Shown here piece after piece: positions 1 to 1,486 of a stretch of 20,671 nucleotides of DNA (its first letter is position 1; each line of letters starts with the position of its first letter). Origin of the DNA: a virus; the IMG/VR virus record IMGVR_UViG_3300028025_000548, positions 1 through 20,671 of that record; one strand, written 5' to 3'. Made by a program: the position numbers and the translations under genes. Under the pieces are notes generated by a model. The model did no database searches. It was not told the origin of the DNA and was given only the letters and a program-made list of their open reading frames with translations.

Positions 1-18
1 AACTTATGAAAGTCAAAA

Positions 19-255
19 ATGTCTAAACAAATGCTTGATATTAAATTTGCTGCCCGTGAATATGAATCAGAGGGTAAAACCAAAACCGCTTGGACAACTC
101 ACGGCACATTATTTGTCAATGAGGCGGGGAAAATCTCAATAAAATTAGATTCACTACCAGTTGGTGAAAGATTTAAAGGTTGGTTTCAAGTATTTGAACA
201 ACCAATTAAAGACCATCAAAGTTTGCCAAAGGATGATGGCGAAATCCCATTTTGA
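19..255 (+). CDS. Small ssDNA-binding-like protein with SSB-type C-terminal tip
   Basis: This 78-residue protein reads as a compact beta-rich domain: residues 21-60 alternate polar and hydrophobic residues, with a TAWTTHGTLFVNEAGKISIK core followed by LDSLPVG. It ends in a charged linker and the tail DDGEIPF. That tail closely matches the acidic C-terminal tip of bacterial SSB proteins (typically DDDIPF), which recruits replication and repair partners. Small phage and plasmid proteins with the same KT.W...G..F...G...I.LD..P pattern are familiar to me. I infer an accessory single-strand-DNA-binding or SSB-mimicking role in phage replication. The ATG lies 10 bases after a TGA that may end an upstream gene; the Shine-Dalgarno is weak. 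The protein is much shorter than true SSB (about 150-180 residues), so a non-SSB small OB-like protein is equally possible. Confidence 0.6.
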   Translation: MSKQMLDIKFAAREYESEGKTKTAWTTHGTLFVNEAGKISIKLDSLPVGERFKGWFQVFEQPIKDHQSLPKDDGEIPF

Positions 256-260
256 TTAAC

Positions 261-317
261 GGGGGGAAAGCTGTGCAAAGGTTAATCCTAGCTTGCGGAC
301 GAGCAGTTAGTACCCCC
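261..317 (+). ncRNA. Candidate structured RNA or 5' leader upstream of the winged-helix gene
   Basis: The 79-base gap between the first two genes can fold into a closed multi-branch structure. GGGGG at 262-266 pairs with CCCCC at 313-317 and encloses two hairpins. One is AGG (279-281) with CCT (287-289) around a TTAAT loop. The other is GCTTG (291-295) with CGAGC (300-304) around a CGGA tetraloop; its five pairs include one G-U. No promoter or intrinsic terminator is obvious. It has no T-loop sequence or anticodon-arm layout, so it is not a tRNA. It could be a cis-acting leader controlling the downstream gene, whose AGGAAC ribosome site begins about nine bases after the closing strand, or a small RNA. 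Base pairing is seen; function is inference. Confidence 0.35.
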
Positions 318-334
318 ACCTTTTAGGAACAATC

Positions 335-655
335 ATGGACTACAAAAGAATGTTTGACAGAATATTTCCCGAATTTCCAAGAGTCAGAGCCAATGACCCC
401 GTAACCTCATTTGAGGCAGCGGAGTCGATCAAAGACGCTGTGTCTCAGCACCACCAGACCATTTTGGATTGTTTGCAAAAACACGGTGCTTTGGGTAAAG
501 ATGGGATTTCAGCCCGTACAGACTTAGACCCCAATCAAGTGGCCAGGCGCTTAAATGAAATGAAAGTCATTGGGCTTATCCAATTGACAGGCAACACAGT
601 TAAATCAAATTCAGGCAGAAACGAAAGAGAGTGGCAATGTATCCAATCGGATTAA
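335..655 (+). CDS. Winged helix-turn-helix phage protein
   Basis: The 106-residue protein has the layout of a recurring family of small phage winged-helix proteins. It opens with a basic segment (RVRANDPVTSFEAAESIK, residues 17-34) that in relatives reads like R..DP.TS.EAA. A helix follows around HHQTILDCLQKHG, then GKDGISARTDLDPNQVARRLNEM as the helix-turn-helix, and IGLIQLTGNTVKSNSGRNEREW as the wing. It probably binds DNA and regulates or assists early phage functions; no target can be named. ATG is preceded by AGGAAC at good spacing. Its end overlaps the next gene by 19 bases. The candidate structured leader directly upstream makes this the one early gene with visible scope for post-transcriptional control. 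Confidence 0.6.
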   Translation: MDYKRMFDRIFPEFPRVRANDPVTSFEAAESIKDAVSQHHQTILDCLQKHGALGKDGISARTDLDPNQVARRLNEMKVIGLIQLTGNTVKSNSGRNEREWQCIQSD

Positions 656-825
656 ACGGCAATCAACCTGTCCACAAATTAAAATGTTGCAATAAGTGTG
701 AGGAAATCAAACCCCCAGAGGGGGGGATTGACATGGGGCATAAATGGATTTGCCAATCTTGTTGGATTTCTAAAAAAGTAGGCAGACACCAAAGGATTAC
801 AAATGACCAAAGACGATCTAATTAG
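637..825 (+). CDS. Small zinc-ribbon protein
   Basis: This is a 62-residue protein with two CxxC knuckles: CNKC at residues 18-21 and CQSC at 39-42, separated by 17 residues. That is the layout of a zinc ribbon. The C-terminal third is basic (KKVGRHQR, NDQRRSN), suiting nucleic-acid contact. I chose the ATG at 637 over an in-frame GTG at 631 because a GAGAG ribosome site sits 5-6 bases upstream of the ATG. It overlaps the winged-helix gene by 19 bases and the following gene by 23, indicating one early operon. Zinc binding is inferred from the cysteines; the biological role is unknown. Confidence 0.55.
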   Translation: MYPIGLNGNQPVHKLKCCNKCEEIKPPEGGIDMGHKWICQSCWISKKVGRHQRITNDQRRSN

Positions 826-997
826 TTTGCTACGCATGACAGGCGCTCAAGAAACCTCTATAGACGCTGTGTGTGCTGCTTACGACGCTGGTTGGAACGA
901 TGCCCTTGACGATTACGCAAAACGCATAGAGTCGCTTCCGTTTGGCAAAACGACAATTGACAGCTTTAGTATTTTTATCAAGTCAGCTAAGAAATAA
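803..997 (+). CDS. Hypothetical early phage protein
   Basis: This 64-residue, mostly helical, acidic protein begins MTKDDLISLLRMTGAQ. Short phage proteins with this type of start (M..DDII.L.R..G) followed by an alanine-rich helix are common near replication genes, but I know no function for them. The ATG has a clear AAAGGA ribosome site six bases upstream (791-796). It overlaps the zinc-ribbon gene by 23 bases at its start. Its stop overlaps the convergent lysozyme gene by 15 bases, so early and late transcripts meet here with no intergenic space and no convincing terminator. Confidence 0.55.
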   Translation: MTKDDLISLLRMTGAQETSIDAVCAAYDAGWNDALDDYAKRIESLPFGKTTIDSFSIFIKSAKK

Positions 998-1486
998 AGC
1001 CTTTTCAGCTTTTCTGCGCTTGACCAAACCAGCCACCTCTTTACCGCCCGCTTTAGTCCAACTCATAAAGGCTTCAGCTGCGCCCTCCCAATCACCACGG
1101 TTGACCTTCATGCGAATGGTTGACCGTTGGTAATTTCCTAGACCAGCGTTGTAAGCAAAACTGGTAACAGCGTCAAATTTACTTTGATGACTAGCAAGAT
1201 CAGGAGAAAGTCGAAGAACACCACGTTCAAAAGTATTGATGTCCATCTTGAATAAATCGACCAGTTCCTCTTTTGACCAAACACGATTGTCACCTTCCTT
1301 TAGTTGGTAGTCAGACCTAATAAGCCCCGTGTAACCTTCTTTGCGGACGTTTGGTAGACTTAGTTGGTCAGCGTACATAGCGTGACCCCACCCAACAGTC
1401 CAAATGGCCGCAGAACAGCGATAAGGCTTGTTCCTGTACCCTTCAAAGAAGTGCATCAAGTCCTCACCCGCTTTGCTGACTTTCAT
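983..1486 (-). CDS. Endolysin, T4-type lysozyme (GH24 muramidase)
   Basis: The 167-residue enzyme cleaves the glycan bond between N-acetylmuramic acid and N-acetylglucosamine in peptidoglycan at the end of infection. It carries the GH24 catalytic pattern E-8-(D/C)-5-T as Glu15, Cys24 and Thr30, within FFEGYRNKPY and IWTVGWGH. Cysteine at the second position occurs in P1-type relatives. The middle (QSKFDAVTSFAYNAGLG) and the end (GLVKRRKAEKALF) also match the family, and the length is typical. There is no N-terminal signal-anchor, so the protein should wait in the cytoplasm for a holin. Its ATG overlaps the stop of the upstream holin-like gene (ATGA), and its last 15 bases overlap the convergent early gene. 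It is the last gene of the late operon. Confidence 0.93.
   Translation of the reverse strand: MKVSKAGEDLMHFFEGYRNKPYRCSAAIWTVGWGHAMYADQLSLPNVRKEGYTGLIRSDYQLKEGDNRVWSKEELVDLFKMDINTFERGVLRLSPDLASHQSKFDAVTSFAYNAGLGNYQRSTIRMKVNRGDWEGAAEAFMSWTKAGGKEVAGLVKRRKAEKALFLS

Follow-up and report, generated by a model that had tools for sequence, protein, structure and literature searches.

The Locus and Its Structured Element

Near the beginning of the window, by which is meant the whole stretch of 20,671 nucleotides analysed here (IMG/VR virus record IMGVR_UViG_3300028025_000548), two genes on the + strand are separated by a 79-base gap that runs from a stop codon at 253–255 to an ATG at 335. The upstream gene (19–255) encodes a 78-amino-acid protein with the acidic C-terminal tail DDGEIPF, which makes it SSB-like but not a proven SSB; no Pfam or PHROGs match was obtained for it, its profile found no sequence relative in the PDB, and its predicted structure is all-beta at low confidence (pLDDT 61). 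The downstream gene (335–655) encodes a 106-amino-acid winged-helix protein that matches phrog_1123, a family of unknown function (E 5e-13), with HTH and winged-helix (wHTH) Pfam matches below the cut-off. This gene has a Shine-Dalgarno-like sequence of its own, TAGGAAC, at 324–330 on the + strand, with a duplex energy of −4.2 kcal/mol (calculated for locus L082, which is identical to the window).

Within the gap, the 57-base stretch at 261–317 of the + strand forms one closed RNA domain of the short type, class A, as judged from its match to model R2, which was built from 36 short-type sequences, from covariation in three alignments (A4, A5 and A6) and from RNAalifold. The domain is closed by helix P1, in which GGGGG (261–265) pairs with CCCCC (313–317), usually followed by ACC (318–320 in the window), and the P1 pairs across A6 comprise GC, AU, UA, CG, UG and one GU. 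Directly inside P1, GAA (266–268) and AGUA (309–312) face each other as the two halves of what looks like a bulged-G (loop E) three-dimensional motif. The GAA/AGUA combination occurs in most of the members printed, though the search pattern required GAA and AGTA; AGUA is found in 36/36 sequences of A4, where the pattern required AGTACCC, and is also common in loci found by protein search. One subgroup carries GAUCCCCCC in place of AGUACCCCC, which lengthens P1 to match the six G of that subgroup.

Helix P2 joins GCUGU (270–274) to GCAGU (303–307) and covaries, the types seen being GCUG/CAGU, GCCA/UGGU, GCG/CGC and GUG/CAU. Next in sequence comes P3, where GCAA (275–278) pairs with UUGC (293–296), again with covariation (GCAA/UUGC, GGCA/UGCC, GACA/UGUC, GCUA/UAGC and ACUA/UAGU). 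The apical part (279–292) reads AGG-UUAAU-CCU followed by AGC in the window and differs in length and sequence among the short types. Between P3 and P2 lies the conserved 3' bulge GGACGA (297–302), present in 36/36 sequences of A4, though 31 of these came from a search whose pattern demanded GRACGA; among loci reached through protein similarity, AGACGA, AGGCGA and GGGCGA also occur. The window element scores 74.5 bits with R2 (E 3.2e-15), a match by construction, as the identical L082 sequence is among the R2 seeds, and together with the P1/P2/P3 pairing and the GGACGA-type bulge this places it in the RNA family described below.

No terminator-like site, that is, a GC stem followed by a U run, was found on the + strand of window positions 1–1100, and an intrinsic terminator was rejected for the element itself, since P1 runs directly into ACC and not into a U run. 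On the − strand, one terminator-like GC hairpin was found at 712–726, inside the ORF after the winged-helix gene, where 1.6 would be expected by chance. Further along, an endolysin gene (Pfam Phage_lysozyme, E 2e-33) and small genes occupy 983–2294 of the − strand and are convergent with the early genes.

Covariation and Folding Energy

The first-pass annotation of this DNA had proposed a structured RNA in the gap and named covariance among homologous gaps as a check, and compensatory changes in those gaps bear the proposal out. Alignment A4, a plain MAFFT alignment of 36 chosen class-A elements, has 99.0% of its cells paired and 29 double-change cells, compared with 7.5 after shuffling; RNAalifold, given the same 36 chosen relatives, returned P1, P2 and P3 unaided with the same 14 pairs. 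A5 was made from 79 matches in 78 chosen sources and has 78 distinct sequences; 96.2% of its cells are paired and 93 are double changes, against 19.4 ± 3.8 in shuffled alignments. For A6, 97 chosen sources gave 94 matches (E ≤ 0.05), with 96.0% of cells paired and 152 double changes, against 38.0. A5 and A6 were both made with the model and lean towards it. The double-change counts are inflated by the relatedness of the sequences, which is retained in a control where the partners were slid by 1–3 columns, and there 41.5–54.5% of the A5 cells were still paired. At two positions of A5 the commonest pair is G-U (GU 58, UG 36), which points to an RNA of that strand. One probable chance match, L101 (record G008), was left out of the alignments and the fold test and kept in the context and Shine-Dalgarno counts.

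The outer G5/C5 helix that the annotation had drawn is P1, with its compensatory changes. The two hairpins drawn inside it, one with a CGGA tetraloop, found no support: GCUUG/CGAGC can pair in 93.9% of cells, but it shows 0 double changes in 36 sequences and its second pair is broken in 10/36. The letters CGGA are the last base of P3 and the start of the GGACGA bulge.

The folding energy of the window element is below the shuffled mean (−19.2 versus −15.48 kcal/mol), but the difference is modest (z = −1.27), and 27/200 shuffles fold equally well, so that the lone sequence says little. For a set of 72 distinct short-type elements that includes the window's, the mean z is −1.35 and none reaches 0 or above. 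All 72 fold as one closed domain, compared with 10.6% of shuffles, a comparison in which the ends were set at P1 and thus favour the real sequences. A structured RNA family with strong covariation is on these grounds solid.

Occurrence and Variants of the Family

Pattern or model searches place the family in more than a hundred phage contigs of widely differing length in IMG/VR, which we presume to be environmental from the general nature of that collection and from two Manatee Spring records. A search of IMG/VR with the downstream protein gave 145 related stretches, and in the best 80 of these 145 the gaps share a recurring pattern in which changes on one side are matched on the other. When IMG/VR was scanned with a DNA pattern, at least 120 stretches came up, from which 117 elements were extracted. 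R2 detects 64 elements in the 80 winged-helix loci, besides that of the window, which is also one of the R2 seeds. The remaining 16 loci, judged by eye, comprise four with a long variant (L028, L029, L073 and L067, the last cut by the contig end), six with a plain hairpin of the type GGGGG-CUUAG-CCCCC or AGGGG-CUUUUG-CCCCU (L009, L010, L066, L069, L077 and L078) and six without any element (L040, L042, L071, L074, L075 and L080).

Among the short elements, class A has P3 as GCAA/UUGC with a longer loop, and class B has a P2 of 3 bp and mostly tetraloops. In the long type, a variable inside is framed by sequences resembling GGGGGGAAAGCGGAUGC...GCAGCGAGUACCCCC, and in L329 and L344 little beyond P1 and loop E is kept. 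The junction before the HTH family, tallied over the best 80 of 98 loci, has the short element in 19, a larger variant in 6, the frame only in 2, the long type in 11, a simple GC hairpin in 24 and other closed folds in 7, with the stop and ATG overlapping or touching in the remaining 11. HTH gaps are either absent or 25–134 nt long. An example of the plain replacement hairpins that occur naturally in relatives is GGGGGCUUCGGCCCCC. Four element-less MRN relatives (L287, L292, L298 and L299) have their stop 4 nt before the ATG; the truncated MRN loci L308, L311 and L314 were left out of the gap comparison.

Several junctions carry other arrangements. A different closed structure, CGCTAGG...CCTAGCG, occupies the same junction in L335 and L343 (also L345–L347), in a gap of 126–134 nt before the HTH start, and another closed fold, GAGGCGGTG...CACCGCCTC, lies in the gap before the HTH gene of L348 and L349; L349 also carries the standard element, some 300 nt upstream at an adjacent junction. 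Two elements stand in tandem in L079, and an apparent long-type 3' end lies just before the short element in L179, L259, L270, L280, L281, L302, L303 and L307. L390, L391, L393 and L394 have two long-type matches each (2213–2288 and 2898–2985), about 700 nt apart.

The annotation had also named an Rfam search for a known motif, and none of the Rfam families matched: at the Rfam 15 gathering threshold there were 0 matches for the window, 0 for 14 relatives and 0 for 7 long-type loci (E up to 0.5), and window positions 200–400 gave two matches far under the threshold (E 2.6 and 7.8). Window positions 1–1000 showed no DNA similarity to named phages, and the element itself had chance-level similarity only. 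Of the nine named-phage loci searched with R2, two from Manatee Spring in GenBank gave weak matches, one in MW202520 (21.9 bits, E 0.004), where an annotated opposite-strand gene overlaps the match, and one in MW202462 (19.5 bits, E 0.016), 17 nt before a 'MarR family' gene. Bacterial copies were sought and rejected: of 29 pattern matches in genome contigs, 12 were rescored with R2 (E up to 1) with a best score of 26.6 bits and none was convincing, and the seven inspected all overlap ORFs of at least 100 codons in some frame. Among the papers listed in PMC, surveyed by titles and abstract openings, none was on the motif; most subscription papers fall outside that coverage.

Genomic Context and Copy Number

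When ORFs were sought on the element's strand, 155 of 161 pattern-found entries (some contigs appear twice) had a co-oriented upstream ORF, and in 132 of these 155 the element starts 5–8 nt past the stop codon. In both-strand model searches, 66/66 and 49/49 matches lay on the strand of the anchoring gene, which for the window is the downstream gene. Sorted by tail and length, 90/155 upstream genes encode small proteins whose acidic tail ends in F, and 38/155 encode proteins of about 300 amino acids that also have an acidic tail. In other phages the upstream position is taken by a small family different from that of the window, and this one does match SSB families in PHROGs; the 300-amino-acid family is phrog_27714, of unknown function. 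Profile comparison of the two small families aligns the tail only, and the label 'SSB-like' for the upstream genes is partly inferential.

As the annotation's 'leader of a winged-helix gene', the element does precede wHTH genes, but this description proved too narrow. It is also followed by HTH genes (weak Pfam matches, below the cut-off), a 120-amino-acid family without matches, a DUF7307 gene and, by eye, DNA polymerase-like and primase-like genes. In L117 the element does not follow a stop codon but lies 12 nt past the end of a perfect sigma-70 consensus (12/12), ahead of a DUF7307 gene, the 300-amino-acid gene, an HTH-like gene and a primase-like gene; in relatives of L117, too, a consensus promoter precedes the element. 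In what appears to be the same operon, the element is found at four junctions: before the DUF7307 gene in L117, between the 300-amino-acid and HTH genes in L088, between the 300-amino-acid and primase-like genes in L102, and between the HTH and primase-like genes in L115. The next start was found 79–85 nt from the element in L103, L129 and L158, and in L103 and L158 a hairpin, AGCCCTGAGTGAACAGGGCT, lies about 10 nt past the element, and a search for a nearby gene start gave none. By eye, HNH-like genes stand before, after or in place of the element in L007, L071, L129, L170 and L260, as if the junction were a homing-endonuclease hotspot.

Copy number is low, with the reservation that the records may be fragments and that R2 detects the long type poorly. 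R2 matched 26/29 records, 25 of them once and one twice, the one match in G008 being probably due to chance. Among 44 element-holding records (three shared with the 29-record set), 41 had a single match and three a double one. Of 34 records chosen for a different-looking junction, L379 proved to be of the long type, and 32 of the 33 others had no match, L349 having one at its neighbouring junction.

Translation Signals around the Element

With a Shine-Dalgarno call defined as a duplex energy of −4 or better, the start codons downstream of the element fall into two groups. Where the base of the element is 15–26 nt from the ATG, a Shine-Dalgarno sequence is present in 53/59 distinct leaders; where it is 5–13 nt from the ATG, there is one in 0/25, or 0/23 without L126 and L192, two mis-set rows in this class whose assigned start probably lies upstream of the real one. 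The baseline is 60% of 517 other genes and 16% of random sites. In distinct gaps of 25–150 nt, a Shine-Dalgarno sequence lies 3' of the fold in 56/58 winged-helix gaps and on either side in 0/36 MRN gaps. In the HTH gaps, it lies on the stop side of the predicted fold in 12/36, on the start side in none and on neither side in 24/36, and the 12/36 may be an undercount because several HTH gaps pair AAGGA inside the predicted fold, where it was not counted.

The unpaired distance from stop to start was not shorter in real gaps than in shuffled ones, being below the shuffled mean in 22/62, 25/44 and 11/36 gaps. This 'effective distance' test of the spacer reading came out alike for real and shuffled gaps and was set aside as giving no discrimination.

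Possible Roles of the Element

The sequence comparison establishes that the RNA folds, that the fold is conserved, where it sits and how Shine-Dalgarno sequences are divided around it; from this we infer a mechanism, every functional step of which is conditional. The element would be a cis-acting structured RNA within an early polycistronic phage mRNA, a compact fold between a stop codon and the next start that may set how much downstream protein is made per translation of the upstream gene. At an ATG without a Shine-Dalgarno sequence, 5–13 nt from the fold, the stop and start would be held close in space, and a terminating ribosome could start the next gene. In some gaps of the HTH family, the element or a replacement hairpin stands downstream of a Shine-Dalgarno sequence located at the stop codon and upstream of the start. 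Because wHTH phages, the window among them, provide the downstream gene with a Shine-Dalgarno sequence of its own, bridging is not needed in the window, and the element there would more likely limit coupling or shield the mRNA. Our tentative preference, held at somewhat less than an even chance and drawn from sequence comparison, is that the element serves as a folded spacer separating neighbouring genes that are often coupled in translation; the gaps have the anatomy expected of a coupled pair into which a fold has been inserted. The spacer reading is weakened by the class without a Shine-Dalgarno sequence being drawn from few gene families, and a mere spacer role does not account for the conserved GGACGA bulge. 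Also against it are the gaps with a Shine-Dalgarno sequence on neither side (36/36 MRN, 24/36 HTH), the unpaired distances that are no shorter than in shuffled gaps, the promoter in place of a stop in L117 and its relatives, the distant starts in L103, L129 and L158 and the opposite-strand gene over the MW202520 match. PMC12548453 reports a negative correlation between coupling and structure immediately past the stop, which likewise counts against it. A more ambitious and doubtful proposal is that of a transferable phage RNA device, a P1 and loop E frame with exchangeable insides that would replace the Shine-Dalgarno sequence, so that terminating ribosomes might cross the fold into a gene lacking one, and that can be swapped for plain or unrelated folds.

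A role in mRNA stability or processing, in which a stable domain after the stop would block 3'-to-5' exonucleases or mark a cleavage site and let the upstream, often SSB-like, message outlast the downstream one, is rather unlikely. The placing of the element 5–8 nt past the stop in 132/155 entries, whatever the downstream gene, would suit it, as would the very stable CUUCGG hairpins found as replacements and the position of the element in L117, near the likely 5' end of the transcript; however, it predicts neither the Shine-Dalgarno dichotomy nor the conserved bulge, and RNase signals are usually less sequence-strict. As the annotation had proposed, the bulge and loop E might instead bind a specific protein or small ligand and switch the downstream gene. 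They are indeed less variable than the helices, an outcome towards which the search pattern was biased, and the fold directly precedes the start codon in most loci listed. Such a regulatory leader is unlikely in view of the several downstream gene families, the relatives that manage with plain hairpins or nothing, the usual single copy per contig and an unsystematic look in which no conserved alternative pairing with the Shine-Dalgarno sequence was noticed.

The four different junctions in an apparently single operon (L117, L088, L102 and L115) also suggest a small mobile or selfish nucleic-acid element that would insert between genes and be tolerated because it folds away. Tandem copies agree with this, as does L304, where CTAA flanks the element on both sides and the element-less L287 has CTAA once, but a 4-base repeat can arise by chance or deletion, neither ends nor an enzyme are known, the copy number is mostly one and host copies were not convincing, so insertion of this kind is improbable. 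For a trans-acting small RNA processed from the early mRNA, one could point to the self-contained fold, mostly a single copy per contig, at different junctions; yet 32/33 records with another fold or nothing at the junction have no copy elsewhere (these may be fragments, and R2 is poor on the long type), and the replacement of the element by plain hairpins, or its absence, in such relatives argues against an essential trans-acting RNA and leaves this role very improbable. A replication origin, of which the annotation had suggested a part, or a DNA-level structure could draw on neighbouring genes annotated as recombination or SSB genes in named relatives. This reading is almost certainly wrong, as the GC-skew extremum is not on the element in seven records, which may be fragments: the maximum lies 3.4–3.6 kb away in G001, G005, G006 and G010, and there is no extremum on the element in G014, G021 and G027. 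Moreover, G-U pairs are common and the strand is tied to the neighbouring gene. Taken as a whole, the earlier interpretation is partly supported.

The junctions at which a complex element, a plain hairpin and no gap at all are swapped for one another amount to a natural experiment on how intergenic structure governs translation, an open question for translational coupling. They do so in a strongly covarying RNA family that spans more than a hundred phage contigs and matches nothing in Rfam 15.

Comparison with Known Systems

REP and puf sequences are intercistronic hairpins that stabilise mRNA. The present element resembles them in being a GC-rich closed helix right past a stop codon in polycistronic mRNA, and differs in its conserved internal loops and in covariation at the level of a motif across phages. 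With termination-reinitiation coupling it shares a start without a Shine-Dalgarno sequence beside an upstream stop, some element-less relatives having the two touching or 4 nt apart; the difference is that a folded domain here lies between stop and start. According to PMC12548453, coupling works best when stop and start are near each other.

In T4 genes 25 and 38, structures between the Shine-Dalgarno sequence and the AUG improve initiation, according to PMC3014915. The likeness to this split ribosome-binding site is a hairpin in phage mRNA between translation signals, with a Shine-Dalgarno sequence on the stop side in 12/36 distinct HTH gaps. Unlike genes 25 and 38, the window has its Shine-Dalgarno sequence 3' of the fold and thus a different anatomy, most cases without a downstream Shine-Dalgarno sequence have one on neither side, and a conserved motif recurs here at unrelated junctions. 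The T4 gene 32 (SSB) autoregulatory pseudoknot, described in the same review (PMC3014915), is likewise a phage RNA structure linked to an SSB gene. It lies 5' of its gene and binds gp32, whereas the present element is found on the 3' side of its SSB or SSB-like genes, which belong to several families.
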